Positions 3,135 to 41,960 of a stretch of 47,994 nt of DNA are shown piece by piece. The stretch comes from a virus. The notes beneath the pieces are model-generated. The model was not told where the DNA came from and ran no database searches. It saw nothing but the letters and a program-made list of their open reading frames with translations. The first letter of the stretch is position 1. Every line of letters begins with the position of its first letter. Location: positions 1 through 47,994 of the IMG/VR virus record IMGVR_UViG_3300020193_000037; one strand, 5' to 3'. The position numbers were made by a program, and so were the translations under genes.

Positions 3135-6100
3135 GTGGATAATTTGAATCCCAACAATGAATTAATCGAATTTGTGATTAATGTAAAAGACGGCAATCGT
3201 CTCAGCCGCCGCCTCGGTCGAACACTCAAACTCGCAGCAGGGGGGGCCGGAGTGGGAAGGGGTATAGGGAGAGCACTCGCCCAAGAGCCATTTGACCCCA
3301 ATGCTTTCGATGGCGACAACGATGGCTTTGTCCAGGACGGCACCATATTTATGCGCCCTGTTGTTCTCAGGGGTCAAATGAACCTGAGTAAACCCACCCC
3401 CAAAACGCCCATAGAAAAAGACGACACCACGCCAACACAAGTCGCCAAGGAGACACGGCGCCAGCGCGGCCTCGCGTCATCCACAGAACCGCCCGCCATA
3501 GACCGCCCTGCCAAAAAACCCGACCCTCTTGACAGAGATTGGCGCCGCCAGGCGACAGAAGACGAATTGGCGAGGGTATTCGTTCCCCTAACGACAAAAG
3601 AAATAGATGAATTGAATGAACGCATTACGGTCCCAAGGGAATCATACAAAACAGAAGAAGATTATCAACACGCACTCAACCTACACCAACAGGCAATCAA
3701 AGCATACCGACTTTTGCCCCAAATGAAAATTAACGCATTGGAATCCATGTACGACTATGAATTCGGAACTGGTGCATTCAATAAAGACATCGAAAACAAC
3801 TATTCTTTATTCACCTCACGGGTGAATAAACTGTTTGGTGCTCAGGAAGACTTTGGCAACCTGATGTCCTATGTTCATCACGACATTGTGGCGTGGCAGG
3901 AAGAATTTTTTGACACACTTTTGGCAACCCCCAACACTCCGCAAATAATAAAAGATTTAATCCTCGAAGCCAAAAGAATGCAGGCAGCCAACAATGGCTT
4001 TCTTTACCATGGACTTTTTTCTAAGAGGCATATCGACCCATCCGATGGCTTGGAAAAACCTGTTCCTGATGCCATAGGCATGATGGAATACATACTTGCT
4101 CGGTTAATAGTGGGGGGACAATCCATAAGTTTCATGAATATGCAAGAAATAATGGCACCCAACAAATCCCCAGCCCTTGACCTCGTACAGAGCATCCTAG
4201 AACTCTATTTTAATTTTGCTTCACAAAAGGCCTCATACCCACGTGACCCGATGTCCGTCGCGCTACGAGAGGTTGCTAGGCAATGGCATTTCGTGCAAAA
4301 CGCGCAAGATTCGACTATTGGACCACCACGCTTAATTCGTGTCCAAAACGTTATTACTAACGACCAAATAAAAAATAGACTTGATTTTGCACAGCAATCA
4401 GGGTCTCTCTTTGGATTTATAGGAACAATATTTCCAAATCGCATAGAAATGAACGATTTTTTTATGAATGGCATTGCTAACGCTGTTCCATCAGAAGTCA
4501 GACAAGACCGCGTCATGCTGCGGGCGTTTGTTAGACGAACCCTAAAAGAAAATCCAGAATTTCTTCACGCTGTTCGCGAATATGGATTGCCTGTCATAGT
4601 TCTACCGCATCGCGTTTTCAGTTTTGTCGGACAAGATAAAGACCTAACCCTTGAAATGCTCACCGCATCCCCACAACATATGTCAAAATCATTGCTTGCC
4701 AAACGAATAGAAATAGGGAAAAAATTACTACGAAAACATGAACGATTGCTGCGTGTTGAATGGTCGCGCCGCGCCATGCGAGGAAAGCATTTTACAGAAC
4801 CCCTTAACCGGGGTCGAACTCAAGTTTTCTCCGACTATGAAAACGGCGCATCAGGGCATTTCCCTATGAACGCACCCCTTGGTGGTTACTTTCAGCCTCA
4901 CACCAATGAAATGGTTTTACAATACGGGCAACTTTTGTTATACATGCTTAACCCATCCGAAGCATCACGAGAAATATTCAATATTGAAAATTCGAACGCA
5001 ATATCAGAAACCATCGGCGAGGCCGCGGTCGTGATTCACGAATATGGACATTATTTGGACTATATGCTTCGACGCAATTATGCCTTGCTGGCATGGGAAC
5101 AATTTAAACGAGACCCCAAAAACTGGGGCATTTCAAACATATTTTTTAAACCTCCTGTAGGAACAACTTATCCTGGTGGAGTACCACATTATAAACGTTT
5201 TCGTGATGCATTAGTGCGCCGTGAAGACCTGGGTTTCGGTCGAAGACACAACGGTTATGACGTCGTAAACGGGCAAAGAAGAATGCTTAAAAACAGAAGA
5301 ACTCAACCGATGTTCGCAGACCCCGCACTGTGGGGTAACTATCCCAACTTCGACAATATCCCGACAGGTCAAAGGCTGTTTGACGTCGACAACATGACCG
5401 ATAGCGAACTTCAAGCCGCTATTACAGAACTTGAAGGTCAATTACAAGAAATGCACGCGACCGACACATTATCTCAGCGACGACGCAACGAACCAAACCG
5501 CAGACGTCATAAAGATATCAGCAAAGACAGCATCAACTCATCCGAACCATATGTAGTAACCCCTTACGGGCAAACAGACACAACCGAAAGATTCGCTGAG
5601 ATTTTTGCCTCCGTAACAACCCGCCTTGGACAAAAGCACCCATTTTTAGTAAATAATGCGGCGGTAAAACTTGTTGCGCGTATTTTGGGTCTTAATACGG
5701 AGCCACAAACAGTCACATCAATGTGGAGACGCAGGAAAACCTCTAGGGGGACGTTTTCAGATGAAGTGGACGACATTTCTGACAGAATTTTGTCAAATAT
5801 AAAAATAGTGGCACCGCAACTTGAAAGAACAGCAGACGGTCATCGCCCTGGCTTTAATTCATCGACATCAGATGATAATTTACGTTTTGACCCAAACGAA
5901 CGTAGCCGTTTGACACTTCGCACCAACCTAAATATTGATACAGACGAACGACTCTACGCAAATCCAACCCCAACACTCTTAACTGATTATGGCTCACGGG
6001 CGCGTTTATTGCACATCGGCGACCATCATTTCTATGACAACCGCGTGCCATTTGCCTCGTTCTTGGACCAAAGAACGCGACAATCATTCGGCGAATCAGC

Positions 6101-9100
6101 AGGGCAACGTTATATCAATAGAAATCGACCTCATCACGGAGATATGGTACGCGCCATCTCCTCAATTCAATTTGGTTTATTCGTTGACGATATGCCCATC
6201 TATGACACCACAACCGAAGGTAACAAAGACATGTTGCGCAGTTTGGTCACGGGCAAAATTGCCAAACTTCCAATCTCAAAACGCTCCCCGATTGAAGCAG
6301 CATTAAAGGACGCAGCAGATATTCATCTGGCGGTACAGGCGTCAGAACCAAACAAACGCGAACTCTTCCGAATCATCAATATTGATAGGGAAACCTTTTT
6401 GGAAGGATTCAATATTGGCGACAGCATACCAATGCCGATAACCGCAGTTTCTTCGACGATGCCCCACAAAGACAATACCGTAATTATTCGTGTGGAGAAA
6501 GGCGCAAAAGCAATCGATGTTGGTAACGGTCAATTTTTGACTCAGGGTAATTTCGAAGTCACAAAAATACAAGATAACGGCACCAATGTCATCGTAACTC
6601 TTTCCCACAAAGAAGTTTTCGACCCAAGACATGACGCAATGCGACCAGTTGACAAGTCCTCTGATGTCCCAAAGAAAATGCGCAAAATGGGTGCATCACT
6701 TGCTCGTTATACACCTGAAGAGCAAGAAAAAATGAACATTGAAATGCAGAAACGCAAAGACCACACAGACGTCTTACAAAATCGTGGCTTGGCTTCATCT
6801 ACAACGGAAATCACACCGCCTGAAATGAAGGACTTTTTGGACTATGAACGAGTCGCCACGAATCGCGAAGAATACCAACAACGCATGGCCCCATTTATCG
6901 AACGGGCACGCAAAATAGTTTCCGACCACATCCAAACATCAGTTCAACGCCGATTGACTCAATCCATAAAGGCAATTAAAAATAAATACGGAAGAACAAC
7001 TCCATGGAAAGATGATGTCGATTCAATCCGAAAATGGCGAACACTTGATACTGAAACCACCAGACGAGCAATTGACACATTACGTGACTTACTCATAAAA
7101 AATTCTCGAATAGGCGACGACAAAGAAGAAATCTCCTTTGACGAATACTCGCCATTATACAAATTTTCGTATTTGCTAAGTCGGATTGGATTCGACGGCA
7201 CTATGTCTAGGGCCGACCTTGAGCGCCTATTGGCCACGGGTGAATTTGGCAAAAGACAAACAGGGCACTATTTGACTGACGAAGAAATACGAGAAGGGTT
7301 TATTAGCATCCCCGAAATCATCAATCCCCAAACAGAAGCAACCAAAGAATTGCGCCAAGTCTTACAAACAACCCTGGATGCCCTCAAATCAGTTCAACGG
7401 GCATATTTGCTTGATGGTTCTTCGAAATCTGGCAAAGGCGGAGTTATCGCAATCGATGATACGGCAATAGAAGTAGAACCACTTAAGTCAACAATTGGCA
7501 GTAAGGGTGCTTACGTGGTTTTGCAGGGCTACGAAAGCGGTCAGAGACTTTGGAACTACTCCAATAACAGCCCTATTTCATTCAAAATACAAGCATCATT
7601 CACAACTTCCGGACAAAAACACCGTTCAGACCAATATTTTGAACGTGAGATTTACCTTAACGAACAAGGCAATATCAAAATTAAACACAGTAATTTCATG
7701 ATTAGAGAAGCCGGAGAGGGGGCAACAGGAAAAGGTAGAGGAATAGGAACACTTTTACAACAACACGCCGCGCTGTGGTGGAGACAACACGCAGGAACAG
7801 AAATATTCATCCCCAGTGCAGTTTTGGACGGGGTAATTGTATGGCCTCGCATGAATTATCAATATAACTTGGCCGATAATGACACGGGCGGTTTCAAGGA
7901 ATTTCGGCACAAATTAATTGTCGAGATACGAAACATACTTCGTGCTGCTCTCTTCGAAGACCCGAACATAGACGAGGACGAAGAGGGCATTTCGGCTGCG
8001 CCCTCTATCGCCGCTGATATAGATTACGGGTTAAAAACCAACAACGATTTCCGTCAGCGACTCATCGGATGGCTTGCACTTGCGCGCATGCATGAATCGA
8101 CAAACAATAACGACACGGGCCTCATAACAATTCTTGCAAACATCATCGAGCCTCGCGAACTTACCGGAGAACAAAAATTCGCTTGGAAACAACTATTCGA
8201 TGATTCGAATTTGAATCTGTCAAATCTTTCCATAATCGTCGACAGACAAGATAACGATTGGCTCCCAGCCTTTGCAATACCCGACCAACCCGACGACCCC
8301 GAACTCAGTAATTTTGGGCCAACACATGAAAACCGCCAACGGGCAGAACTTATTGGGTCGCTTTCCGATAACAAAATGGAAGAATTTGACCTGTTTATTG
8401 GACCGCTCGACTCGCCAGAAGGACTTAATCAACAACAGGCAGGGCGGCTGGCAGCCATCATAAGGGCTGGCGACCATGAAGAAGTCAACCTATTCAAACA
8501 CGCAGAACGCGAAAAATACGCACGAGAAAGCGCAGCATTCAACTCACCCCCTCGACTTATCACACGGACAGAATTAGAAGAGCGCATAAATGCTGGCGAA
8601 AAAGTTCTTTACGGAATAAGCAACAATGGAGACAATTGGTCGAATGACGAAGTTCCCGTGGCTCTTGAAGGCGTGAAAAAACACCTGACAAAGGTAACCA
8701 GTGAACCATTCCGATACCTCGACAAAATGGTCGACAAACAACGCCCTGACCAGGACCCAGCACAAAACAAAAATGGGTTGATTATTTTACTTGACCCGAA
8801 AGCGAGAGTGTTGACTAACAACCAGGTGGAACAAATTGTTCTGAAACTATTCCCAAACATAAATTTCCCATTGGGTGCATGGATTGACGGAAATTATGAC
8901 AGTTTGATAAACGACATGATTAAAACGTATGGTGTCGAAGTTGACACTGGGACACTTAAACTAATCGTCCCCAAAACATCCATAACCACCGGCTCCGCAA
9001 GCGACATTCAATTACACGCATTCAGATTGGCTAAAGCATTTTTTGCAATCGAGAATCAAAGGCGATTACAAAACAACCCTCCTTCACTTGTCAAACTTCG

Positions 9101-12100
9101 CAACGACCTATTAGCAGAATTCATAAATTCAACTACTGTCCTCAGGACTACGTTAATTCCAATATTGCTGGGAACTGATGCCATTAAACATGGCAACAGA
9201 ACGTATGAAATTTTGAACAATAGGGTAATCCAAATTCTCGATGAAAAGGTTTCATTTGCACAAGCGGCGCAGATGATAGATGACCCGAACTTCAGGGTAA
9301 TCCCTCACCAAAAGTCTTTCACCCAGGAAACAGAAGAAATTCTTGAACGTATCAATGGTCAATTATCAATAGGGCAAAGAGAAACATGGTATCTCGGAGA
9401 TGACGCACGTCTACTGCCTGATGACGCCATCGAAATGCCCCCACGAGCAATGCAGTCTTTTTCTTACATCAATCAGGTTCGCCAAGACTTCAATGTTGAT
9501 TTGAACCGAGATAGGGGTTTTTCATCTGGGCAATTTGCCCCCAGAACGACAGAAAACCGTCTTAAGGCGCGAAAAGCCGGACAGTCATGGCTGGATTTTA
9601 TGGCTGCAACGCCCGAAATGTTTCAATCCCATATAGACGCTCTTAAAAAAGATTTTGATGCTCTTCTTAGGGCGCAAGAAAAATGGGATGCTATTGACTT
9701 GGCCAAGGGCCCTGACGAACCAGTAGACGTAGTAGGTCGTAGACAAATTCAAGAAGAGTTAAACCTCCTCGCCGACAAGGTGGTTCACCTGATTAACTCT
9801 TCAAACAATGCACTTGAAGAAGCCATTGACCACGAGGCGACGAGGCAGGCCATTGAGATATTGCGTGAACAAAAGACTTGGCAGACCGTTATCCCGCCTC
9901 GATACATTGAAAGATTAGAACGTTTGGCGGATGAACTTGAACAAGAAACAAGGCTTCATAACATAAATTTAAAGAGGCTTTACCAACGCCAGACATCCAT
10001 CAGAGAACTCTTAAGTGATTTCCACATTGCATATGAGGTTCGTAAGACATTGGAAGGCGAAGAAAGCATTGAATTAGCCAACTTTATCGATAGCGACGTA
10101 AAAATCCGAGTAGAAGATATTTCGCTTCTGATATTCAACATGATGTTTAGCGATAAAAAACGGCCCATTGATGCTATGCGAATGGAAATGGATGCTATAC
10201 GAACGGAAATTAATGCCCTACAGAATGCATTTTTTGGGGGCACCGCTGACCCCAAAAACGTGAGAGTGCGCCTAGATGAGATATTCCGAGACGTTCCTCC
10301 TGGCGAACGGGCAAAATGGCGAGAAAAACTAGATTTAAAACTTGATAACGACCCACTCGATGTGTTGGGCATCAATGCTGATTACCTAGATTACCAAATC
10401 GAATCTACTCCGACCACTTTTTCAACCGCGCCACGTGAAGTACCAACTCCGACTTGGCGCAAAGTTCGTGCCGCGATGAGTCGGTCTAGGTCAACCAAAT
10501 ATGAAGGCGAAAGAATTGCCGCAGAAGAAGCGGCTATGCGATTGCTGGAAAAATACCGACCCGACTTGGCTAACGAAAAATTTGTACGGGGTATCAGGTC
10601 GTCAACGATTACACAACCAACCGATGTCATGCGCCCCAATTTTTCACAAAAAACAACGATGCGTGGTTTGGACCCTGAATCTCCACTTGTTAATCTAGAA
10701 AACCAATTCGGTGCACGGCTTATCGACCGAATGCGAAGTCTCGGATACGACATTGAAATCGCTGACCTGATGCCCACGGGCAAATACGGCAGAATGTTCA
10801 AACTAGTCGATAAATTCGAAAATCTTGAGGGACGCGATTTTGATTTCAGTGACCCGCTTCTTGCGGCACTTGTACAACAGGCGACGGCTTTGGCGCGTGA
10901 AAATATGGCAATCATCAAGATTGAAGGGCACAGTGTCAAAAAGATTTTGGCGCCGCTGGATACGGAAGTTGCCGACATTCTTGGCGACGAACTCGACGTG
11001 GCGATGCTTCGGGTCATGGGTAGCCCGACCTACGAAAAAATAGTTAATATTGCTGCGGCTTTCTACACCGAAAGAGCCCGGCTTAATCGAGCATTTGGTA
11101 CCCCGGTGGACAATTTTACCGACCAATACCCGGGCGCCGGTGCGTTTCATCATGTTCTCAGGAAGCCAGGCGCCATCGAGGGGGGCGGGGGAGATAAACG
11201 GGACATCGGTGTCAAACCAATCACTTTCACCCTGGGTGACGATAAAACCGTTGTCGCCACAATTGGAGTGATTGACCCGCAGCGCCTGAAAGAAATTGAG
11301 GCGCGTTTCCCCAGCCGCTACGGAGAGCCAATAAGCCTTTTGACTTTGTTGTCGAGAATGGAATCATCGGATGCACGAACCAATGACGTAATTTTTGGTG
11401 TCATGAATGAAATAATCGGCTCAGATTACGAAAGCAAAGACCTCAAAACCCTCAGAGACGAATACGCGGCAGTCCAGGAAATTGTCGGCAGCATGACGTT
11501 CGCCCCGTCGCCCGCCGGACGCCATGTCAAGCAACTCTTCGAACAAAGTGTTGAAAAATTCAGAATATTGAACGACCTCACAGAAAGATTGGGGCAACGA
11601 TATGTCCACCTGCTCCGAAGCCGAGGTATCACGGATTCGGAAATCAAGGACATGTTCGCTTTATTGCGTCAACAAAACCCTGGCGGTCCTTTCCGCAACG
11701 GCACCTACAACAACCCCGGCCTGCATGGTTCGGTAATACAAACCGCACTCGAAGGTTTTTTGATGAAAAACATGCGAAGTTTGAACCTACCGCAAATCAC
11801 GGATTCCACAATCGAGGAACTCGGGCTCCACGAGACAGGACATTCGTTCCTCGGACAAGGGTTCACAAGACATGGAGAATTTACTGCCAATTTCTGGGCG
11901 TTCGCGCTTTACGGCCCCGCTTTCTGGCCCGTTTTTGCACAAATGCAGGCAGGGCAGGAACGATTCGACAGATTTACAATCCAGGAAAAATTTGGTCACA
12001 AATTGACACCCGAACAAATATTAAACGTTGCGTTCGTCAAAGTTGCCATCGGGGGCGACCGTCGTTATCTCGGCTTGACAATCAGCGACAGACAGCAAAT

Positions 12101-12668
12101 TAAAGATTCTGTCTTCGAGCGAATCGACAACGACCCGAATCTTAACGATGCAGAAAAAACACAAATCAAAAAAGAAATTAACGAACATTTTTTTATCAAA
12201 TTTGACGAATATGAGGTAACTGACGAAACCAGGCGCCTTGCCGAGGAAGCGGGCGTCGACCCTGAAGCATTGCAATTCGCGTTTCATGCAACATCCGAAG
12301 CCGTCATCCGAACCAACGAATTGCTCGACCCGACAATTCCCCTTCCCGCTCGGGTCTTCGGATGGATAAGGGAGAACGGAATGCCCGACGACAAACCATC
12401 AGGTTTATCACCAGAGATTCAGGCTGTGAATAGACGTCAAGAATTCCAATATCTAGCCAATGTTCTTCTGGAACTTCTCGGCAGGGGCCCCGCATTCATC
12501 GGCGACGAAACGCCAGAACAAATGGCTCTTGCCGAAAAAGAAGCAAAAGAAAAGAAGAACAGGGCAAAAAAGAAGTTTGCTAAAATGATAGAGACGGTAA
12601 ATCAACTTGCCAAAAAATACCCCGAACTTGGCAAAGAATTTGCCGATGAATTGGGGAAACTTAAATGA
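3135..12668 (+). CDS. Giant multidomain polyprotein (zincin, ART-like, GNAT-like)
   Basis: 3177 residues from a GTG start, with a Shine-Dalgarno AGAGGA at 3121-3126, 8 nt upstream. Visible parts in order: an EF-hand-like loop DGDNDGFVQDG (about 57-68); a zincin motif H635-E-Y-G-H639 with a later TERFAEIFA helix that could give the third ligand; an ART-like region (about 1025-1160) with a FRI strand Arg near 1079 and an SST motif near 1106, but with NGQ where ARTs carry catalytic ExE; a GNAT-like acetyl-CoA loop G1532-KGRGIG; long helical stretches (about 2150-2270); and a second zincin motif H2899-E-T-G-H2903. Short linkers of the GLASST type recur near 112, 906, 1218, 2128 and 2486 and may be hinges or cleavage sites. 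Actinophages encode comparable virion-associated fusion proteins, so an injected or virion protein that is processed is the likeliest role (inference). The next gene starts in an ATGA overlap. Confidence 0.7.
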   Translation: MDNLNPNNELIEFVINVKDGNRLSRRLGRTLKLAAGGAGVGRGIGRALAQEPFDPNAFDGDNDGFVQDGTIFMRPVVLRGQMNLSKPTPKTPIEKDDTTPTQVAKETRRQRGLASSTEPPAIDRPAKKPDPLDRDWRRQATEDELARVFVPLTTKEIDELNERITVPRESYKTEEDYQHALNLHQQAIKAYRLLPQMKINALESMYDYEFGTGAFNKDIENNYSLFTSRVNKLFGAQEDFGNLMSYVHHDIVAWQEEFFDTLLATPNTPQIIKDLILEAKRMQAANNGFLYHGLFSKRHIDPSDGLEKPVPDAIGMMEYILARLIVGGQSISFMNMQEIMAPNKSPALDLVQSILELYFNFASQKASYPRDPMSVALREVARQWHFVQNAQDSTIGPPRLIRVQNVITNDQIKNRLDFAQQSGSLFGFIGTIFPNRIEMNDFFMNGIANAVPSEVRQDRVMLRAFVRRTLKENPEFLHAVREYGLPVIVLPHRVFSFVGQDKDLTLEMLTASPQHMSKSLLAKRIEIGKKLLRKHERLLRVEWSRRAMRGKHFTEPLNRGRTQVFSDYENGASGHFPMNAPLGGYFQPHTNEMVLQYGQLLLYMLNPSEASREIFNIENSNAISETIGEAAVVIHEYGHYLDYMLRRNYALLAWEQFKRDPKNWGISNIFFKPPVGTTYPGGVPHYKRFRDALVRREDLGFGRRHNGYDVVNGQRRMLKNRRTQPMFADPALWGNYPNFDNIPTGQRLFDVDNMTDSELQAAITELEGQLQEMHATDTLSQRRRNEPNRRRHKDISKDSINSSEPYVVTPYGQTDTTERFAEIFASVTTRLGQKHPFLVNNAAVKLVARILGLNTEPQTVTSMWRRRKTSRGTFSDEVDDISDRILSNIKIVAPQLERTADGHRPGFNSSTSDDNLRFDPNERSRLTLRTNLNIDTDERLYANPTPTLLTDYGSRARLLHIGDHHFYDNRVPFASFLDQRTRQSFGESAGQRYINRNRPHHGDMVRAISSIQFGLFVDDMPIYDTTTEGNKDMLRSLVTGKIAKLPISKRSPIEAALKDAADIHLAVQASEPNKRELFRIINIDRETFLEGFNIGDSIPMPITAVSSTMPHKDNTVIIRVEKGAKAIDVGNGQFLTQGNFEVTKIQDNGTNVIVTLSHKEVFDPRHDAMRPVDKSSDVPKKMRKMGASLARYTPEEQEKMNIEMQKRKDHTDVLQNRGLASSTTEITPPEMKDFLDYERVATNREEYQQRMAPFIERARKIVSDHIQTSVQRRLTQSIKAIKNKYGRTTPWKDDVDSIRKWRTLDTETTRRAIDTLRDLLIKNSRIGDDKEEISFDEYSPLYKFSYLLSRIGFDGTMSRADLERLLATGEFGKRQTGHYLTDEEIREGFISIPEIINPQTEATKELRQVLQTTLDALKSVQRAYLLDGSSKSGKGGVIAIDDTAIEVEPLKSTIGSKGAYVVLQGYESGQRLWNYSNNSPISFKIQASFTTSGQKHRSDQYFEREIYLNEQGNIKIKHSNFMIREAGEGATGKGRGIGTLLQQHAALWWRQHAGTEIFIPSAVLDGVIVWPRMNYQYNLADNDTGGFKEFRHKLIVEIRNILRAALFEDPNIDEDEEGISAAPSIAADIDYGLKTNNDFRQRLIGWLALARMHESTNNNDTGLITILANIIEPRELTGEQKFAWKQLFDDSNLNLSNLSIIVDRQDNDWLPAFAIPDQPDDPELSNFGPTHENRQRAELIGSLSDNKMEEFDLFIGPLDSPEGLNQQQAGRLAAIIRAGDHEEVNLFKHAEREKYARESAAFNSPPRLITRTELEERINAGEKVLYGISNNGDNWSNDEVPVALEGVKKHLTKVTSEPFRYLDKMVDKQRPDQDPAQNKNGLIILLDPKARVLTNNQVEQIVLKLFPNINFPLGAWIDGNYDSLINDMIKTYGVEVDTGTLKLIVPKTSITTGSASDIQLHAFRLAKAFFAIENQRRLQNNPPSLVKLRNDLLAEFINSTTVLRTTLIPILLGTDAIKHGNRTYEILNNRVIQILDEKVSFAQAAQMIDDPNFRVIPHQKSFTQETEEILERINGQLSIGQRETWYLGDDARLLPDDAIEMPPRAMQSFSYINQVRQDFNVDLNRDRGFSSGQFAPRTTENRLKARKAGQSWLDFMAATPEMFQSHIDALKKDFDALLRAQEKWDAIDLAKGPDEPVDVVGRRQIQEELNLLADKVVHLINSSNNALEEAIDHEATRQAIEILREQKTWQTVIPPRYIERLERLADELEQETRLHNINLKRLYQRQTSIRELLSDFHIAYEVRKTLEGEESIELANFIDSDVKIRVEDISLLIFNMMFSDKKRPIDAMRMEMDAIRTEINALQNAFFGGTADPKNVRVRLDEIFRDVPPGERAKWREKLDLKLDNDPLDVLGINADYLDYQIESTPTTFSTAPREVPTPTWRKVRAAMSRSRSTKYEGERIAAEEAAMRLLEKYRPDLANEKFVRGIRSSTITQPTDVMRPNFSQKTTMRGLDPESPLVNLENQFGARLIDRMRSLGYDIEIADLMPTGKYGRMFKLVDKFENLEGRDFDFSDPLLAALVQQATALARENMAIIKIEGHSVKKILAPLDTEVADILGDELDVAMLRVMGSPTYEKIVNIAAAFYTERARLNRAFGTPVDNFTDQYPGAGAFHHVLRKPGAIEGGGGDKRDIGVKPITFTLGDDKTVVATIGVIDPQRLKEIEARFPSRYGEPISLLTLLSRMESSDARTNDVIFGVMNEIIGSDYESKDLKTLRDEYAAVQEIVGSMTFAPSPAGRHVKQLFEQSVEKFRILNDLTERLGQRYVHLLRSRGITDSEIKDMFALLRQQNPGGPFRNGTYNNPGLHGSVIQTALEGFLMKNMRSLNLPQITDSTIEELGLHETGHSFLGQGFTRHGEFTANFWAFALYGPAFWPVFAQMQAGQERFDRFTIQEKFGHKLTPEQILNVAFVKVAIGGDRRYLGLTISDRQQIKDSVFERIDNDPNLNDAEKTQIKKEINEHFFIKFDEYEVTDETRRLAEEAGVDPEALQFAFHATSEAVIRTNELLDPTIPLPARVFGWIRENGMPDDKPSGLSPEIQAVNRRQEFQYLANVLLELLGRGPAFIGDETPEQMALAEKEAKEKKNRAKKKFAKMIETVNQLAKKYPELGKEFADELGKLK

Positions 12669-12850
12669 GAGAAAAATCCGTTTCAGCAATAGTCCAACAA
12701 TTCATGAATAGTTTCAGCGACCAGGAAAAAGCAGACCTGATTGAAGCAGATGATGACTTCCTGGATGTGCTAGAAATTAGAGAGAAAAGAAGAAGAAGAA
12801 AAAATGTACAGAACTCAAAGAAACAGCCAAACAACCCTTCAATGGGTTGA
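12665..12850 (+). CDS. Small charged protein, 61 aa
   Basis: Starts in an ATGA overlap with the stop of the giant gene, so it is probably translationally coupled to it. The sequence is acidic in the middle (LIEADDDFLDVLEI) and strongly basic after (REKRRRRK). No family recognised. It overlaps the next gene by 47 nt. Confidence 0.55.
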   Translation: MREKSVSAIVQQFMNSFSDQEKADLIEADDDFLDVLEIREKRRRRKNVQNSKKQPNNPSMG

Positions 12851-13298
12851 TGTTTCTGTCAAAAAATTCATTCTCAACGCCCCATTGGAATACAAAAATG
12901 GCGATTACACAAAACCCGCATTACGCGAGGACATCAAACGTCGTATTACGGCTGGCTCAAAAGGTGGCAAGCCTGGTCAATGGTCGGCTAAAAAAGCACA
13001 AATAGTTGCCCAAACATACCGACAGGCAGGTGGTGGCTATCGCACGGGTCGCCCTTCTCGTAAACAACGCACACTTCGCAAATGGACCAAACAACGTTGG
13101 CGCATATCCGATGGCAAAAAAGCGGGGCGCAACGAGGAAATGAGGCGTTATCTGCCAGATGCAATATGGAAACGACTAACCCCATCACAACGGTCCGCCA
13201 CAAATAAAAAGAAATTACAAGGCGACAAGAAGAACAAACAGTTCATTCGCAATATGGAAACCGTTGGAGAGATTACAAAAAAACACCAAAAACTATAA
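12804..13298 (+). CDS. Basic DUF5872-like protein
   Basis: 164 residues, very basic. The core 'GQWSAKKAQIVAQTYRQAGG' followed by LRKWTKQRW, RYLPDAIWKRLTP and TNKKK resembles a family of small basic proteins (DUF5872-like) found in phages and large viruses; function unknown, nucleic-acid binding plausible from charge. The start overlaps the end of the preceding gene. Transcription probably ends in the hairpin starting at its stop codon. Confidence 0.55.
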   Translation: MYRTQRNSQTTLQWVDVSVKKFILNAPLEYKNGDYTKPALREDIKRRITAGSKGGKPGQWSAKKAQIVAQTYRQAGGGYRTGRPSRKQRTLRKWTKQRWRISDGKKAGRNEEMRRYLPDAIWKRLTPSQRSATNKKKLQGDKKNKQFIRNMETVGEITKKHQKL

Positions 13299-13339
13299 GG
13301 CTTTGTTCCAGAATCCCGTACTGATTTAACAAAGCCTTA
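13296..13339. terminator. 12-bp hairpin at the end of the giant-gene operon
   Basis: TAAGGCTTTGTT (13296-13307) pairs perfectly with AACAAAGCCTTA (13328-13339) across a 20-nt loop. It includes the stop codon of the + gene and lies between convergent genes, so it could terminate either direction. There is no long T-run. Confidence 0.65.
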
Positions 13340-13342
13340 AAT

Positions 13343-13376
13343 AGTTCAGCGCAGCCCTCCCAGACCGCGCCGAACT
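13343..13376. terminator. Second hairpin between convergent genes
   Basis: AGTTCAGCGC and GCGCCGAACT pair with one A-C mismatch. It lies directly beside the first hairpin and upstream of the ssb stop codon, so it may serve the - strand transcript. Confidence 0.5.
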
Positions 13377-13390
13377 ACACCTTTTGAAAC

Positions 13391-13864
13391 TTAAAACGGT
13401 TCTCCGTCGTCGGTCCCGGCAGCAACCGGAACTTTAGTTGTTGATGGTCGTGTGCGTGGCGCAGAATTGGTCGGGCGACTTGGAGCACTTCCACCGCCTG
13501 CATTGTCTTGCCTTACACGACGCTGGATGCTTTCAAGCGAACGAGTTGCGATTCCAATTTCTTCCGCAACCAAATCAACCACCGAGCGCTTGACGCCTTC
13601 TTTGTCTTCATACGAGCGTTGTTCCAATCGCCCTGTCACTACAACTCCAATGCCCTTTTCGAGGGTTCGTGATGAATTTTCTGCCAAATAACGCCAAGCA
13701 GTTACATTGAAGTACGAGGTTTTCTCTTGTTTCTCGCCTTGTGCATCTGTATACCCGTAATTAACTGCGACTCCAAATGCAAGGCGAGCAGCCCCGGCAT
13801 TCGTGTAGGTGAGTTCGGGGTCATTTGTGATATTCCCCGAAATAGTTAGTGTTGCTGTTGCCAT
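13391..13864 (-). CDS. ssb: Single-stranded DNA-binding protein
   Basis: 157 residues from the ATG at 13864, which has a good Shine-Dalgarno AAGGAG 6 nt upstream; a longer frame starting at 13963 has no support. The N-terminal OB fold is clear (ATLTISGNITNDPELTYT, then YFNVTAWRYLAENSSRTLEKG and VVVTGRLEQRSYEDKEG). A flexible Gly/Pro/Ser/Thr linker follows, ending in the acidic tip DDGEPF that in bacterial SSBs recruits partner proteins. It coats ssDNA in replication and recombination. Unlike most genes here it has a standard leader and ribosome-binding site. Confidence 0.95.
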   Translation of the reverse strand: MATATLTISGNITNDPELTYTNAGAARLAFGVAVNYGYTDAQGEKQEKTSYFNVTAWRYLAENSSRTLEKGIGVVVTGRLEQRSYEDKEGVKRSVVDLVAEEIGIATRSLESIQRRVRQDNAGGGSAPSRPTNSAPRTRPSTTKVPVAAGTDDGEPF

Positions 13865-13879
13865 TTTCGTCTCCTTGTT

Positions 13880-13949
13880 GTTTGTAGCGAAAGCATGTTG
13901 CCCTCGCCGATATCTTAGTTGCTTATAGCGAAGGCATATTGCATCTGCC
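13880..13949 (-). repeat. Imperfect 29-bp direct repeat upstream of ssb
   Basis: Copies at 13880-13908 and 13921-13949 match at about 21 of 29 positions, sharing TAGCGAA, GCAT and TTGC blocks. They fill the gap between ssb and the preceding gene, where a promoter and operator would be expected. No strong -35/-10 pair is evident. Confidence 0.5.
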
Positions 13950-13976
13950 AATGCTGGGTCCATTTGTCTTATTATC

Positions 13977-14255
13977 CTACTCGTTTATAGGGTCTTCGTC
14001 AAATGTATCGTCAAAATTGGCTGTATCGTCAAAATCAGCAAGCAATTCATCAATTGGTTTCAATTTCATTGTGGCTGTAATAAGCCCATCTTGGTCTGCC
14101 TTAATGACATCAAGAGATATCGCTTCAAGCATTGTGGAGGCAAAATCCAAACATGCGTCATTATCGGGTTCGTTTGTTAATTTGCCAATAAATTCGGCAA
14201 AATGTTCCAAAACACTAAGCCTTATTTCCTCTGGCGACAGTTCTTTCATAGCCAT
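13977..14255 (-). CDS. Hypothetical acidic protein, 92 aa
   Basis: Start chosen at the ATG at 14255, 6 nt after the -10 box of its promoter; GTG 14261 and ATG 14249 are alternatives. The protein is helical with a very acidic C-terminus (DFDDTANFDDTFDEDPINE). No family recognised. It lies between the HDAC-like gene and ssb. Confidence 0.65.
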   Translation of the reverse strand: MAMKELSPEEIRLSVLEHFAEFIGKLTNEPDNDACLDFASTMLEAISLDVIKADQDGLITATMKLKPIDELLADFDDTANFDDTFDEDPINE

Positions 14256-14261
14256 TACCAC

Positions 14262-14290
14262 AGTCTACAGGTACTAATGATTTAAAGCAA
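14262..14290 (-). promoter_or_regulatory. Leaderless promoter (variant) for the 14255 gene
   Basis: -35 TTGCTT, 17-nt spacer TAAATCATTAGTACCTG, -10 TAGACT (14267-14262), then 6 nt to the ATG. The spacer keeps the family core CATTAGTACC. The -35 overlaps the end of the HDAC-like gene. Confidence 0.7.
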
Positions 14291-15253
14291 CCCCACAAAA
14301 GGGGCAAATTGCCCAGCAGACGGGCGTCCCGCGGACACACGTGGCGATTCGGTCAACAAATCAGGCGTTGCAAAAGCCATAATCGTTGCCAAATGCAATT
14401 GGGTAAGAACCCCATAATCTCCATAGCCCCCCGCTATGACAATAACGGTCGGCGTACCAAGATTTCGAAGGAAATCAGCCACTATTATCTCCCGTTTAAC
14501 GACAGTTTCGGGCGCCACAAATGGATAGATATCCACCCCAGCGTTATAAATAACCACATCGGGCTCGATTTTTTCAACAAGACTGAGAGTTTCTGCTAAA
14601 CCAAAATCAAGATATTCGTCTTTGTTTTTACAAATCAATAAGTTGCTATTGCCATTCGGGGCATAAGAATCAAAATCCGAGGTCGAATAATCGACTTGCA
14701 CGATATCCGTGTTTTGTAAATATTCGTTTGTCCCACCACCACAATGTGCGTCCAAGTCAAGAATCAAAACCTTTTCAAACATTTTTCTTGCGTACATGGC
14801 CCCGAGGGCAAGCGAGTTCACCGTACAAAAACCTGCGCCCCTCGAACGACGGGCATGATGAAGTCCGCTTGACAACGAACAGGCATAATGAAACCCACCT
14901 CTCGCCACATCTCGGATTGCGCACAAGATACCCGCAGTTGAATTGAGTACCGTCTGATAAACCCCCATATCCCAAGAGAAACCATTGCTTTCTGCTAATT
15001 CTCGGGGCCGACCCGTCATCACGGCTTGCAAATACTTGGGGTCTAAGCCTTGCTGTAGGACAAGTTGCGCTTCCGCAAGCATCCCAACCCTATCGGCTGG
15101 GTCTTTGACAGAAACGCCATAATTATTTAAGCATTTCGCCATGGGCGCATAATTATTCAATACAAAAGCAATGTATTTGGACTTTTTGAATGTCGCAAAA
15201 TCAATCTTGGTCCCGCAGTAATCTTCGTTCCAATAAACATTCATATTCGTCAT
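14282..15253 (-). CDS. HDAC/acetoin-utilisation-fold deacetylase
   Basis: 323 residues with the complete active-site set of the zinc-dependent histone deacetylase/acetylpolyamine amidohydrolase superfamily: the His-His dyad H132-H133 (SGLHHA), the GFCTVN strand (141-146), zinc ligands D168 and H170 (DLDAH) and D241 (YNAGVD), and the catalytic-type Tyr in GGY (275-277). Length is normal for the fold. The reaction would be hydrolysis of an acetyl-amide, on a protein lysine, a polyamine or a small molecule; which one cannot be told. It is an unusual gene for a phage. Two promoter boxes lie upstream, with 8 nt between the -10 and the ATG. Confidence 0.88.
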   Translation of the reverse strand: MTNMNVYWNEDYCGTKIDFATFKKSKYIAFVLNNYAPMAKCLNNYGVSVKDPADRVGMLAEAQLVLQQGLDPKYLQAVMTGRPRELAESNGFSWDMGVYQTVLNSTAGILCAIRDVARGGFHYACSLSSGLHHARRSRGAGFCTVNSLALGAMYARKMFEKVLILDLDAHCGGGTNEYLQNTDIVQVDYSTSDFDSYAPNGNSNLLICKNKDEYLDFGLAETLSLVEKIEPDVVIYNAGVDIYPFVAPETVVKREIIVADFLRNLGTPTVIVIAGGYGDYGVLTQLHLATIMAFATPDLLTESPRVSAGRPSAGQFAPFVGLL

Positions 15254-15261
15254 AATAATTT

Positions 15262-15290
15262 AATCTACCGTAAGGTATTCAAAAGAACAA
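15262..15290 (-). promoter_or_regulatory. Probable promoter of the HDAC-like gene
   Basis: -35 TTGTTC, 17-nt spacer, -10 TAGATT (15267-15262), then 8 nt to the ATG at 15253. The geometry is that of the leaderless family, but the spacer (with ATACCTTACGG) does not carry the conserved CATTAGT core. Confidence 0.5.
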
Positions 15291-15335
15291 TCCCATACAC
15301 GCTTCGGGGGGGCGAAAGCGTGCATGGAAATTGCT

Positions 15336-15437
15336 TTATTGCTTTTTGCCCAATCTGGTGACCAACACCACAATTAGGACAGTTGCTACGATAAGCGAAT
15401 AGGAAACATATTCACTTAAGTTAAGTGTTAGTTCCAT
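15336..15437 (-). CDS. 33-aa membrane micropeptide
   Basis: Reads MELTLNLSEYVSYS, then the hydrophobic LIVATVLIVVLVT, then RLGKKQ: one membrane helix with a positively charged end. The ATG overlaps the end of the preceding gene (10 nt), so it is probably coupled. Other micropeptides of the same layout occur in this window. Confidence 0.55.
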   Translation of the reverse strand: MELTLNLSEYVSYSLIVATVLIVVLVTRLGKKQ

Positions 15438-15712
15438 GCGGTAGACCAACATTCGGTAGGTGCCATTGTGTCCAAGTTTTCAATCGTGGCATAGGGAACT
15501 ACTAGAGTCTCCCAATATTCCACTATTTGCTTTGCTTGCTCTTCGGATAGACATGGTATTGTACGACTAATAAAATCGCTCATGTCTCCCGTTGGGCTTT
15601 GAAAGAACAGTTGAACTGCCCATTCTGTTTTGACACCATATTCGGTGGTTGGCGAATACACGACTTGCGCACCAGCCAACGCCCCTTTATGGCGATATGT
15701 AGTTTTTTCCAT
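15428..15712 (-). CDS. Hypothetical protein, 94 aa
   Basis: Start at the ATG at 15712 (MEKTTYRHKGALAG). The longer frame to 15748 only translates the promoter. Seven nucleotides separate the -10 from the ATG, so the mRNA should be leaderless. No family recognised. It is first in a two-gene operon with the micropeptide. Confidence 0.7.
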   Translation of the reverse strand: MEKTTYRHKGALAGAQVVYSPTTEYGVKTEWAVQLFFQSPTGDMSDFISRTIPCLSEEQAKQIVEYWETLVVPYATIENLDTMAPTECWSTAWN

Positions 15713-15719
15713 ACCTTCT

Positions 15720-15748
15720 ACTTTAGCGGTACTAATGGTACTAGACAA
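15720..15748 (-). promoter_or_regulatory. Leaderless promoter for the 15712 gene
   Basis: -35 TTGTCT, spacer with ACCATTAGTACCG, -10 TAAAGT, then 7 nt to the ATG. Confidence 0.8.
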
Positions 15749-15758
15749 CCCCCCCCTG

Positions 15759-17684
15759 CTATTTGTCCAAAAGGCTTAAAATCAACTGAATACCCACTTC
15801 CTCGCCATCGGCACCGGGGCCGCCGTCAACGGCGGTGTTCACAACTGTCCGTTTTGAGGCAATCAGGGAATAGATTTTCTCGTCTATTGTGCCTCCACAC
15901 AATGCGTAAGTCGCCGTAACCGACCCTTTTTGCCCCATTCTGTGTAGTCGTGAATATGTTTGGTCAACATCGGCTGGAGTCCAAGGCAACTCAACAAAAA
16001 TTATGTCTTGCGCCGCAGTGAGTGTGTGTCCCGTTTTGGCTGCCTGAATAGAAAGTGTTATAACCTGCTGTTGCGGGTCTGTTTGAAACTTATGTTTGAC
16101 ATTTTCAACTTCCGCAACCGACATACCGCCCTGTATTTTCAAACCACCAAAACGATTTGCTAGTTCGTCAACTATGTCTCTATGATGCGCCGCAATCACA
16201 ACTTTGGCCCCGTTGGCAGTTCGCTGTTGAACCCACTCAATTATGCTTTCCATTTTTGCTTTGGCTGCAAGACGACGAAGCACCGAAAGTCGTACAAGAT
16301 TTTGTGCGTGTTCGGCTTTAATCCGTGCGATGACGATTGCTGAACGAGTATTTGTCCCAAGTTCCAAGGCAATTTCTTTCGCACGCTCGACCAAGTAATG
16401 AACAATGTCGTTCTCGGCTTTGGCATACTCAACCATCGCCGCCGGGGCCCCAACAAGAGTGAGTTCCTGATGAAATACGGGCGGTAATTCAGCCAATACT
16501 TGCTCTTTTGTTCGTCTGATATAACAAACCGACCTTAATTTTTCGTTAAGTTCCTCCAGATTGCTTGCACCTTCCAAATGCCACTGACCATACTTATCTT
16601 GAAATGCGTTGCAATACCTGCGGTAGAAGCCCCAAGTGCCACCAAAGTCCTTGATTTTGCCCAAAATATCCAACTGCGCCACATATTCAGCGGGACGACT
16701 CGTCACGGGCGTACCCGTCAGGCACAACACGGGCGTTCCAGAAGGCGATGAAGCGACAATTTTGCGCGCCGATTTTGTTCGTTTGGCTGTCAAAGTCTTG
16801 CAATAATGGCTTTCGTCTAATACATAAGCGGAATGGGAAGTCAAAAATGATTCCCAATACGAAATGTTCGAGTACCCGATTACAAGCGTGTCATAGGTCC
16901 CGCGTTCCGGAAACTCTTTTTGCCCCTTCCCAGCCAAAACTGTCGCTATTTTGCGTTGAGGCAACCATTTCGCGTACTCGGCTTTCCAATTCAGCACAAG
17001 ATTAGGTGGACACATAACAAGGGCTGGATATTGACCAATAATTTCTAGGGTCGCAATTGCTTGCAAGGTCTTTCCCAACCCCATTTCATCGGCAATAAAA
17101 CAGCGTTTGGCTTGTTTTGCGTAGGCTACGCCTGCTTTTTGATACGGCAACAAGGACTTTTCGAGTCCCGTATCGCCTATCACGATTTCTGCTTCCACCG
17201 CACGACTTGCTTCGCTCAATTCGGATAGTCGTGCGTTGATTTCCTTTGCTTTCACAAGGATTTCGGGTGAAACAGTCCTGTTAAACCTGCTAGCCCATTG
17301 AATTGCCTCATTAATTGCCGTTATCGGGGCTCGCCACGCCCCCGTGCGCTTATCCCAAGTGACTGAAGGTATCTGTTTGACCGACCTGACCATCACGGGG
17401 TCGTAAGGAAACGATATGTAAATATCCCCGTTCTTTTCATATACGCCTATATCTTGTGCGCTCAACCTGCGTGGCAAGGTGAATACAAGAACTTCATTAT
17501 CAATGACAAACCCGTGTTTGGTTGCGAACTCACGCGCCTCATTAACGCTTGAAACGGGGCAACGCCATAACCGCCTGACCTTATCCCATTTACAGTCCTT
17601 AATCTGCTTGACTTCGGCTACCTGACTTGCGTCATAGGGGAAATCTAGGGCGAGCGTGTCATTATCAAGAAATAATCGGCTCAT
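15759..17684 (-). CDS. SNF2-family helicase with two HARP-like repeats
   Basis: 641 residues from the ATG at 17684, in a TAATG overlap with the LysM gene. The N-terminus has two similar modules (about 12-57 and 97-140; FPYDASQVAEVKQIKDCKWD and FPYDPVMVRSVKQIPSVTWD), each like the HARP domain of SMARCAL1. The helicase core has Walker A D199-E-M-G-L-G-K-T206, motif II D290-E-S-H293, motif III CLTGTP, and a RecA-like C-terminal half ending in the SNF2 Arg box (QTYSRLHRMGQKGSV). SMARCAL1-type enzymes anneal ssDNA bubbles and remodel forks, so a job in phage replication or recombination beside SSB is likely. A DNA translocase activity is well supported; annealing activity is inferred from the repeats. 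Confidence 0.9.
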   Translation of the reverse strand: MSRLFLDNDTLALDFPYDASQVAEVKQIKDCKWDKVRRLWRCPVSSVNEAREFATKHGFVIDNEVLVFTLPRRLSAQDIGVYEKNGDIYISFPYDPVMVRSVKQIPSVTWDKRTGAWRAPITAINEAIQWASRFNRTVSPEILVKAKEINARLSELSEASRAVEAEIVIGDTGLEKSLLPYQKAGVAYAKQAKRCFIADEMGLGKTLQAIATLEIIGQYPALVMCPPNLVLNWKAEYAKWLPQRKIATVLAGKGQKEFPERGTYDTLVIGYSNISYWESFLTSHSAYVLDESHYCKTLTAKRTKSARKIVASSPSGTPVLCLTGTPVTSRPAEYVAQLDILGKIKDFGGTWGFYRRYCNAFQDKYGQWHLEGASNLEELNEKLRSVCYIRRTKEQVLAELPPVFHQELTLVGAPAAMVEYAKAENDIVHYLVERAKEIALELGTNTRSAIVIARIKAEHAQNLVRLSVLRRLAAKAKMESIIEWVQQRTANGAKVVIAAHHRDIVDELANRFGGLKIQGGMSVAEVENVKHKFQTDPQQQVITLSIQAAKTGHTLTAAQDIIFVELPWTPADVDQTYSRLHRMGQKGSVTATYALCGGTIDEKIYSLIASKRTVVNTAVDGGPGADGEEVGIQLILSLLDK

Positions 17685-17977
17685 TAACACTCATCATAGA
17701 TGTGACCGTCCCGATTTTCTAGCAGGCATTTGCTTTCTGTCGGCAACCAAATAACATCTCCGCTATGAATTGGGTCGCCATAGGTGCTAATTAGGTTATC
17801 TACGACCATTTGGATATTGCCGTCGCATTTGGTTTCAGCAATAGCCCAGAGCGTATCGCCCTGCGTCACGGTATATGGGTCGGCTTCGCAAGTGAATTGG
17901 CTTGCCGAGCGTGTAATAAACCCGACAACCGACACTATGCCGACCATTACGGCAACTAGCACTAGTTTTCTACGCAT
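17684..17977 (-). CDS. Membrane-anchored LysM protein
   Basis: 97 residues. Start at the ATG at 17977 (MRRKLVLV), with a strong AAGGAG 5 nt upstream. A basic N-terminus and a hydrophobic helix (about 4-22) act as signal anchor or signal peptide. It is followed by one LysM module (YTVTQGDTLWAIAETKCDGN to SGDVIWLP, about 36-81) that binds peptidoglycan, and a Cys-containing tail. Secretion toward the cell wall is expected; its coupling to a DNA helicase gene is odd. Its promoter lies 73 bp upstream and leaves a structured leader, unlike most neighbours. Confidence 0.82.
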   Translation of the reverse strand: MRRKLVLVAVMVGIVSVVGFITRSASQFTCEADPYTVTQGDTLWAIAETKCDGNIQMVVDNLISTYGDPIHSGDVIWLPTESKCLLENRDGHIYDEC

Positions 17978-17991
17978 TATCACTCCTTCCC

Positions 17992-18016
17992 GCCCCCCTG
18001 TCGGGCTTAGGGGGGC
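17992..18016 (-). promoter_or_regulatory. Leader hairpin next to the LysM ribosome-binding site
   Basis: In the mRNA GCCCCCC and GGGGGGC form a 7-bp stem around an 11-nt loop, about 4 nt before the AAGGAG. It could limit ribosome access or act as an attenuator. The 20976-21047 leader has a comparable GC-rich stem. Confidence 0.5.
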
Positions 18017-18049
18017 TGGAAGGTTGGTTTGAGTTTGCCCGACTCTTTC

Positions 18050-18078
18050 AGTATAGTGGCACTAATGGTATAACACAA
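18050..18078 (-). promoter_or_regulatory. Promoter of the LysM-helicase operon
   Basis: -35 TTGTGT, spacer TATACCATTAGTGCCAC, -10 TATACT. It is the same family as the leaderless promoters, but here about 66 nt of leader separate the predicted start site from the ATG. The leader begins with a box also found downstream of the 21052 promoter (GTCGGGCAA, then AACCAACCT). Confidence 0.8.
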
Positions 18079-18199
18079 CCCCCGCCCGCAAACACTCGGC
18101 GGCAGCCCCGAATGACGCCGGCGAGAAATGAAGCCATTAACACAACAAGAGGGGCATCCGCGCTTTACCCCTATATCTTACGGTGGTGGAAACGGGTTT
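18079..18199. other. Intercistronic element G (GGTGGTGG repeat plus CCCCGA box)
   Basis: Carries CGGTGGTGGAAA at 18181-18192, preceded by CTATATCTTA, and an AGCCCCGA box near 18100. The stretch follows the 18200 gene's stop on the - strand and precedes the LysM promoter. No gene is seen. Confidence 0.6.
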
Positions 18200-18475
18200 T
18201 TAAGACCACATCCATCGTGTTTCCTGTGGAGAACCAAACGCCCCGTTTGTCTTTGTCGTAAACCAAATCTCGGCTTTGTTCGCACAGCCCGACCCCCTAA
18301 ACGATTCCACGAATTTTTCCTTGCTTTCTTCGTTAATGAGGGTTATACGACGCACCATACCCGTGTAAATAATTCCGTCTTGTTCTAGGTCGCCCCTTTC
18401 CACCTTCACCGACCACCCTGCGTGCCGGGACTCCGCGGATACCCCGAGATTGACCGCCTTCAGTTCTTTCCGCAT
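18200..18475 (-). CDS. Hypothetical protein, 91 aa
   Basis: Last gene of the operon that begins at 19388, 9 nt after the preceding stop. Mixed alpha/beta-looking sequence with several Trp residues (AGWSVKVERGDLEQDGIIYT). No family recognised. Confidence 0.6.
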   Translation of the reverse strand: MRKELKAVNLGVSAESRHAGWSVKVERGDLEQDGIIYTGMVRRITLINEESKEKFVESFRGSGCANKAEIWFTTKTNGAFGSPQETRWMWS

Positions 18476-18484
18476 TAGGTCGTG

Positions 18485-18664
18485 TTATGAGCAGTCGTCA
18501 TACGGGTTTTCGTTGCCTTCGTTGTCCTCACACGGACACCAACCAAATAAAGCCACCTGTGTTTCGTGCGTGAGTTCAGTGAGGTCTTCGTAAGACGGCG
18601 AGCCACCTAATTGGTCTATTACCAGACCCCAATAATCTACGAACAATTGTTCTGCGTCAGTCAT
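18485..18664 (-). CDS. Hypothetical acidic protein, 59 aa
   Basis: Start at the ATG at 18664 (MTDAEQLFVDYWG), which overlaps the upstream stop (ATGACTGA); an upstream in-frame start at 18694 is less likely. Ends with a Cys- and Asp-rich tail (CPCEDNEGNENPYDDC). Function unknown. Confidence 0.6.
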   Translation of the reverse strand: MTDAEQLFVDYWGLVIDQLGGSPSYEDLTELTHETQVALFGWCPCEDNEGNENPYDDCS

Positions 18665-18947
18665 TGTGGGGTGACTTGCCCGACAACTCGGCATGCCAAG
18701 GCGCCATATTCTTAATATCTTCCAACCTTTGCATCATTTCGGCAAGGTCTTCTTGGATTAAGGTAACTTCCCAAAACACAAACGCATCCACGGGCGCAGT
18801 ATCAGCCTCAAACGCCTCGTCGTAATACGCAACGAAGTGATTCTTAATGGCAAGCAAGAGGTTCTTTAATTCGAGCATTTGTGCTTCGTCTAAGCGTTCT
18901 ATGTTGGCGTATTTAATTTCTTTGTCCATTTGTTCGTCTCTTGCCAT
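18657..18947 (-). CDS. Hypothetical helical protein, 96 aa
   Basis: Predominantly helical, acidic sequence (ERLDEAQMLELKNLLLAIKN; LIQEDLAEMMQRLEDI). Starts 9 nt after the ART-like gene, across a GGCCCCGA box. No family recognised. Confidence 0.6.
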   Translation of the reverse strand: MARDEQMDKEIKYANIERLDEAQMLELKNLLLAIKNHFVAYYDEAFEADTAPVDAFVFWEVTLIQEDLAEMMQRLEDIKNMAPWHAELSGKSPHND

Positions 18948-18956
18948 GGCCCCGAC

Positions 18957-19211: not shown

Positions 19212-19388
19212 TTACTCCTCGGTGTCAAGCAATGCTTCAATCGCTTCGGCCTGTTCATCAGTTATCTCATCAGTCAACTGACCACTCAGGTAATCTTCAA
19301 TTCTTGCCTGCATCCAATCTTCATAGCGGTCAAGAACTTCTTGGGCTTGAAACTCATTTAGCCCGTCTAAATTTACTTTTCTTCCCAT
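19212..19388 (-). CDS. Hypothetical acidic protein, 58 aa
   Basis: Start at the ATG at 19388 (MGRKVNLDGLNEF); the longer frame reads through the promoter. Leaderless: 7 nt between the -10 and the ATG. The C-terminal half is an acidic helix (LTDEITDEQAEAIEALLDTE). First gene of a five-gene operon. Confidence 0.65.
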   Translation of the reverse strand: MGRKVNLDGLNEFQAQEVLDRYEDWMQARIEDYLSGQLTDEITDEQAEAIEALLDTEE

Positions 19389-19395
19389 ATCTGTC

Positions 19396-19424: not shown

Positions 19425-19471
19425 CCCATCGTCGCCGACATCGCCGGGACCCCCGCCCGTAGCATGACCGC

Positions 19472-20035: not shown

Positions 20036-20038
20036 TTA

Positions 20039-20239: not shown

Positions 20240-20245
20240 ATTTCT

Positions 20246-41076: not shown

Positions 41077-41760
41077 TTATTTCGACCGACCCCTCCTTGT
41101 TTTGGCGTTTCTCCCCTTCTTTACCTTCGTAATTTTGTTCTCCAGATTCTTCTTCCCGTCTTGCACGAATGTCTGGTACGGGCTTCCCGTATACGGGTCG
41201 AATCTTGCTGCTGCTGCTAATGACTTCAGCGCATGCTTTCGAGCACTTTGTATTGACGGGCGCCCGTGGCCCAACAAAGCATGCAGGGCGCCCATTGCAT
41301 ATTGCGCGCCCGTGCCTATCGCGTACACCCCCGTCACGTCCGAGTGCCAGGAATAATCGCCTTCAATGGTGTAAATACAGTTGTTCACGGCCATAATCAC
41401 CGAGGAGTCCATCTCGGCCACATGTTCCTTCCGGTCGTGATGTTCGGCCATTGAATACCCGTGCTGTTCGAAGCATTCTCTTAATGCTGGGATGAATTTG
41501 ACCGTTACAAACTGGTCAAGTTTTCTTCCTCTTAAATTAGGCGGCGTCGCCGGGGGCTGAAAGGCATGATGCAAAATATTGATGGCCCTAATATCTCCTG
41601 CGGCCCCAATGATGTATCGCCCATTGATTACAACCTTGCCCGTACCGTCACGCATAGTGACGACTTGGGTTGCGTAACCAGAATCGTCAATCTCCGCGCT
41701 TCTTGAATCAGCGCAAATAAGAGCAAATGAATCGCCCTGGATACCGACAATTGTTGTCAT
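41077..41760 (-). CDS. Proteasome/HslV-like Ntn-hydrolase protease
   Basis: 227 residues from the ATG at 41760 (MTTIVGIQGDSFALICADSR). After removal of Met the first residue is Thr, as in proteasome beta subunits and HslV; D17 lies in CADSRS as in HslV, and K41 of GKVVING is the probable counterpart of catalytic Lys33 despite an 8-residue insertion. Further family features are IIGAAGDIRA, the long helix region, and DSSVIMAVNNCIYTIEGDYS, YAIGTGAQYAMGAL. The C-terminus is basic (KKGRNAKTRRGRSK). A threonine protease is likely; whether it forms rings alone, joins the host proteasome or matures virion proteins is unknown. ATGA overlap with the upstream gene. Confidence 0.78.
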   Translation of the reverse strand: MTTIVGIQGDSFALICADSRSAEIDDSGYATQVVTMRDGTGKVVINGRYIIGAAGDIRAINILHHAFQPPATPPNLRGRKLDQFVTVKFIPALRECFEQHGYSMAEHHDRKEHVAEMDSSVIMAVNNCIYTIEGDYSWHSDVTGVYAIGTGAQYAMGALHALLGHGRPSIQSARKHALKSLAAAARFDPYTGSPYQTFVQDGKKNLENKITKVKKGRNAKTRRGRSK

Positions 41761-41960
41761 TCGTCGAGTCCATCGAATCCTGGGAAAGACCTGTTTTCCA
41801 TTGCAAACTTGATGCCCGCTTCTGTGGGTCGGTAAAGCCATTCCTGCTCGTCATCAATTCCGACAATTTCGACGTAACCAAGAGAAACTAAATAATCAAG
41901 TTCCATCCTCAGCGCTTTGTCAAAAGACTTGTCTTCGAAGTTGTCTTCGAGGAAAGTCAT
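41757..41960 (-). CDS. Small winged-helix-like protein, 67 aa
   Basis: ATGA overlaps on both sides. FDKALRMELDYLVSLGYVEI, then DEQEWLYRPTEAGIKFAMEN: the 'LVSLGYVE...Y.PTEAG' order is typical of a winged helix reading head. No named family. It sits between the phosphoesterase and the protease. Confidence 0.62.
   Translation of the reverse strand: MTFLEDNFEDKSFDKALRMELDYLVSLGYVEIVGIDDEQEWLYRPTEAGIKFAMENRSFPGFDGLDE

Follow-up and report, generated by a model that had tools for sequence, protein, structure and literature searches.

The window, a 47,994-bp IMG/VR virus record, encodes on its plus strand a giant protein of 3177 aa (3135..12668) that probably serves an actinophage-like tailed phage as an effector polyprotein delivered by the virion, with recurring linkers that an S78 prohead protease would cut at head maturation. 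The open reading frame (ORF) starts with GTG and stays open throughout, and a sibling contig (G002, 54.6 kb) carries the same ORF, with DNA 99.95–99.96% identical over 40 kb. This sibling adds 13.8 kb of known genome upstream of the window; a search by end sequences for the missing part of the genome returned only the sibling and a related contig (286 bp at 81% identity). Neither Pfam nor PHROGs assigned the protein to any family above cut-off, and a tblastn search of 50,697 phage records with the whole protein gave no match.

The window is syntenic with two larger relatives, G006 (118 kb) and G005 (132 kb), with identities of 62% for the helicase, 62% for the AAA protein, 52–55% for an HslV-like peptidase and 67–69% for WhiB. 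Equivalent polyproteins occupy the same place in both, with 3212 aa and 10 linkers in G006 and 3112 aa and 11 linkers in G005, and a homologue of the conserved neighbour gene (12804..13298, +) adjoins each of them too. The WhiB gene of the window lies beside the gene for the HslV/proteasome-like peptidase on the minus strand (40802–41841 for the pair, 41077..41841 for the peptidase), and the pair is kept in G005, G006 and G007. The WhiB gene and the actinophage relatives suggest an actinobacterial host. Near the end of the window, a GTAGTG-type simple repeat (47700–47880), coding for poly-Thr on the minus strand, sits in an ORF (46080–47993) that runs off the end, and the contig stops soon after.

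The protein is a very large phage chain in which several unlike domains or domain-like segments follow one another. The initial annotation had described two zincin motifs (HEXXH), and both are present, at residues 635 and 2899. The first belongs to a zincin-1 module (residues 460–872; 4512..5750, +), well supported by conservation, with HEYGH at 635–639 and the third-ligand motif YGQTDTTERFAE; among six such modules, drawn from five virus records, H176, E177 and H180 of the module are invariant, as is YG....E.FAE, and several polyproteins contain relatives of the module, some with as many as three or four copies. Its profile match to M34-type zincins is weak and limited to the third-ligand motif. 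The second motif (HETGH, 2899–2903) lies in a module with homologues (residues 2782–3050; 11478..12284, +) but belongs to a different family, with the pattern H[DE]xxGH...G..[FY].RHG[ED]. Most of the aligned homologues read H-D-x-x-G-H, and this Asp at the general-base position makes zincin activity doubtful. AlphaFold models of the two modules, built from 6–8 sequences, were of poor quality and low confidence (mean pLDDT of 45 for zincin-1, with a best Foldseek E of 9.8, and of 53 for the HETGH module).

The other two assignments are weak. The ART-like segment (about residues 920–1210; 5892..6764, +) contains the described stretch with NGQ in place of ExE, so that the R-S-E(ExE) catalytic motifs of ARTs were not found in it; its similarity to the ART-like module of relatives L181 and L169 is weak (full-sequence E of 0.0023), and the segment is degenerate. 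In the GNAT-like segment (residues 1441–1640; 7455..8054, +) the loop GKGRGIGT is present and homologous segments occur in L101 and L103, but the GNAT assignment is weak, and Pfam gives no match in the window protein. In another relative, G001, Pfam identifies a GNAT domain above cut-off and an RNase_T match below threshold.

The linkers were found exactly where the initial annotation had placed them: RGLASST at residues 111–117 (3465..3485), PGFNSST at 905–911 (5847..5867), RGLASST again at 1217–1223 (6783..6803), RGFSSGQ at 2127–2133 (9513..9533) and RGIRSST at 2485–2491 (10587..10607), all on the plus strand. The general motif G[FLIM][ARNST]S[STGR], built on sequences of other phages, matches the window protein five times, only at these linkers, against a mean of 0.19 in shuffled sequences, and none of 5000 shuffles reached five. 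The exact 7-mer repeat is by itself moderately unlikely, as 29 of 2000 shuffles hold some repeated 7-mer. The two RGLASST copies differ in 5 of 7 codons. Overall, the linkers of the window vary more than those of most relatives.

Just ahead of the first linker lies FDPNAFDGDNDGFVQDGTIFMRP (residues 53–75; 3291..3359, +), a segment resembling a calcium-binding loop (Ca-loop), which family searches identified as a shared N-terminal signature with the consensus FDPxAxDGDxDGxVQ[DE]GT. A query with the single sequence retrieved 93 viral contigs, and the matches listed for an alignment query include more than 400 IMG/VR contigs at the least; tblastn with the short peptide gave no match, probably owing to the low-complexity filter. 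The loop is carried by 58 non-redundant ORFs of 343–3222 aa. Some further matches are small proteins of about 100–190 aa (G008 51412–51774, equivalent to L213:11412–11774, and many small ORFs in L005–L082) that correspond to PHROG 7924 and carry the loop, as DGDxDGxVQDGTxxxRP, at or near the C-terminus. The gene for this small protein adjoins the tail sheath gene in both G008 and G009, and the Ca-loop may be a general virion-assembly tag. Two marine MAG contigs, L101 and L103, encode Arg/Glu-rich ORFs of 1672–2121 aa with one Ca-loop and without repeated G-phi-x-S, possibly another branch of the family.

In the giant proteins of the family, the modules that follow the Ca-loop are separated by G-[LMF]-[RAS]-S. 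This junction motif surfaced from counts of enriched k-mers with no motif preset: the top repeats in many Ca-loop ORFs were RLSSG (12 copies), GLSSG (10), GMRS (9), GLAS (9), GFAS (8), GLRS (8) and GFASRG (4–6), and the pooled logo runs from an R-rich stretch through G and L/M/F to R/A/S and S. Lineages have their own versions (GMRS, GLRS, GLAS, GFAS, GLSSG, SSRSxR and R[IV]xG[AS]M[SA]), the last being that of G004; G003 has about 24 copies of SRSx[RK] over six ORFs. Consecutive giant ORFs of 4421, 3362, 2740 and 1825 aa with SSRSx[RK] junctions lie within positions 42606–91647 of G003, the first of them headed by an S78 domain. A separate repeat, GGLRSTV, occurs 2–4 times in ORFs of 583–897 aa that lack the Ca-loop (L039 2528+; L043 1996+ and 4149+) and may be unrelated to the family linkers.

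The distribution of the linkers is that of module junctions. First, the general motif is enriched 16-fold in Ca-loop ORFs (179 matches against 11 expected), compared with 2.8-fold in other large ORFs (81 against 29). Second, in 43 ORFs, all 257 linkers follow the Ca-loop, and the 17,851 aa ahead of it contain none. Third, in 42 polyproteins, 29.4% of the ends of local similarities (HSPs) are 25 aa or less from a linker, against a null of 14.7 ± 1.7%, and 562 linkers fall inside HSPs where 1186 ± 79 are expected, with none of 500 rotations as extreme; linkers thus tend to be module borders, and at these borders they have disorder-rich flanks. The part of the initial annotation that took the linkers for junctions is therefore supported, and they are probably cut.

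The linkers might instead remain uncut, acting as docking or spacing elements at module borders or persisting as traces of module exchange. Their position at borders within disordered flanks would suit such a role, but we hold it to be unlikely, although it fares best among the alternatives to S78 cleavage (ALTERNATIVES), which also include self-cutting by the zincins and cutting by the HslV-like peptidase. A site of DNA exchange would retain its codons, and synonymous codons at equal linker residues differ at a rate of 0.678, against 0.739 expected from each gene's own usage (2776 pairs); the linker codons are nearly as diverse as gene usage, which places selection at the level of the peptide and shows that the linkers do not recur as DNA repeats. 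A simple spacer, in turn, would not hold a genome-specific sequence across genes. The likeness of linkers from different genes is 0.398 within a genome and 0.212 between genomes (0 of 2000 permutations), and tape measure proteins carry their own genome's linker motif. This same-genome likeness suggests that something acting in trans reads the linkers, and it could stem partly from common descent of modules. The strict placement after the Ca-loop, together with the association with S78 described below, likewise favours processing.

Of 23 records tested, 20, with G005 and G006 among them, have a Peptidase_S78 (prohead protease) domain, labelled head maturation protease in PHROGs. In 18 of 18 linker-bearing records of one set it forms the N-terminal part of a linker-bearing polyprotein ORF, and it is also found in G003 and G004. 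The gene order in relatives is terminase, portal, S78 polyprotein. The 24 aligned S78 domains share an invariant His motif, WGHxW, and an invariant Ser motif, EWSIGYK. Their sequences correlate with linker type (Mantel rho of 0.40, 0 of 2000 permutations), a correlation confounded by phylogeny. No S78 turned up in the roughly 62 kb spanned jointly by the window and its sibling, where the relatives' genomes span 118–132 kb; the syntenic G005 and G006 encode their S78-headed polyprotein in the region beyond this coverage. Two proteins of the relatives were considered as major capsid candidates and set aside: the one encoded immediately after the S78 polyprotein has no family match and an acidic, scaffold-type look, and the second is a PAPS reductase.

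The initial annotation had looked for the cutting enzyme elsewhere, suggesting first the polyprotein's own zincins. Zincins are the commonest polyvalent domain, with autoprocessing proposed (Iyer et al. 2017, PMC5512222), and zincin-1 of the window keeps all conserved zinc-site residues. We nevertheless consider self-cutting improbable: 27 of the 41 ORFs with at least four linkers have no HExxH, tape measure proteins have linkers too, and the same site recurs in different ORFs of one genome. Cutting by the phage HslV/proteasome-like peptidase, the other enzyme proposed, is very unlikely, for the peptidase is present in the window, G005, G006 and G007 but was not found in G001–G004 or in 11 other linker-bearing records, most of these records being incomplete but one, G008, reaching 114 kb, and the linkers are equally strong in relatives having only S78. 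We infer that the linkers are cut by S78 at head maturation, and not by the zincins or by the HslV-like peptidase.

In the S78 scheme, the short basic N-terminus and the Ca-loop would probably form the head-targeting part of the protein, and the remainder would be a string of modules, with a G-phi-x-S site of genome-specific sequence between one and the next. As the head matures, the phage's S78 prohead protease would cut these sites, probably on the N-terminal side of the conserved Ser, and fragments of about 114, 794, 312, 910, 358 and 689 aa would be predicted for the window protein, to be ejected together with the DNA. The protease of most relatives, being the N-terminal domain of a linker-bearing polyprotein, would cut in trans as well as in cis. 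It is plausible that the effectors are delivered with the DNA, given the order of terminase, portal and protease and the kinship with polyvalent proteins.

Five cultured phages (Gordonia phages Gray, GMA6 and DalanDe, Brevibacterium phage Cantare and Streptomyces phage Gilgamesh) have an S78 domain 35–42% identical and a portal about 37–42% identical to those of the family and, like the family, large ORFs between the portal and capsid genes. Unlike the family, they lack the Ca-loop and repeated G-phi-x-S linkers. In the Gilgamesh record (L188), the interval 7979–21853 encodes gp48, a hypothetical protein of 4624 aa between the portal/MuF and protease genes. In four of the five phages, E-x-K-S sites gather at the N-terminal end (first 150 aa) of the major capsid protein, and in three of the five they are found in the protease. 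In Gray, Cantare, DalanDe and Gilgamesh, represented by L188, L189, L190 and L192, the capsid protein has 2–4 such sites within residues 1–150 and none later, and these unannotated sites are candidate maturation sites. Such a distribution of E-x-K-S is what one would expect if these were maturation sites in which Ser follows the cut; together with the preference of SPN3US gp245 for Ser at P1′ in its cuts at AXE (PMC10052503), it would place the linker cut immediately N-terminal to the conserved Ser.

Polyvalent proteins of phages and plasmids are giant, multidomain and predicted to be delivered with the DNA, and their domains include several zincins as well as ART, GNAT, ParB and nuclease types (Iyer et al. 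2017, PMC5512222). The proteins described here share with them a giant phage chain of unlike domains, and we regard the window polyprotein as a variant of this class. They differ in that the relatives have an N-terminal S78 domain, then a fixed Ca-loop and repeated genome-specific junctions; an assemblin-like peptidase present in some polyvalent proteins, and proposed to process them, is always C-terminal (PMC5512222), and a junction motif of this kind was not found in the main text of that paper. Prohead proteases such as T4 gp21 and SPN3US gp245 cut head proteins at a short phage-specific motif, with several substrates per phage (PMC10052503). There, mostly N-terminal propeptides are removed, whereas here as many as about 13 predicted sites lie between entire modules of a single chain, and relatives have the protease joined to its cargo. 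The literature searched, which covered few subscription journals, yielded no account of S78 fusions at the N-terminus, of the Ca-loop or of genome-specific junction motifs.

Such chains occur in dozens of related phages. The motif differs from phage to phage, and the capsid-maturation protease frequently forms the front of the chain, which suggests that the chain is divided into separate effectors within the virus head. We give even chances to a broader reading, in which a large clade of tailed phages makes polyproteins in the manner of RNA viruses, with a capsid protease heading a chain of effectors, and in which the specificity of the protease and as many as 20 sites or more over several genes have changed together in each lineage, amounting to an evolving processing code. 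If S78 processing is borne out, it would show how giant polyvalent proteins turn into separate injected effectors and would name the enzyme; it would also supply a simple sequence rule for dividing many uncharacterised giant phage ORFs into functional units, and a natural matched set of proteases and sites for following how a viral protease and its substrates change together.
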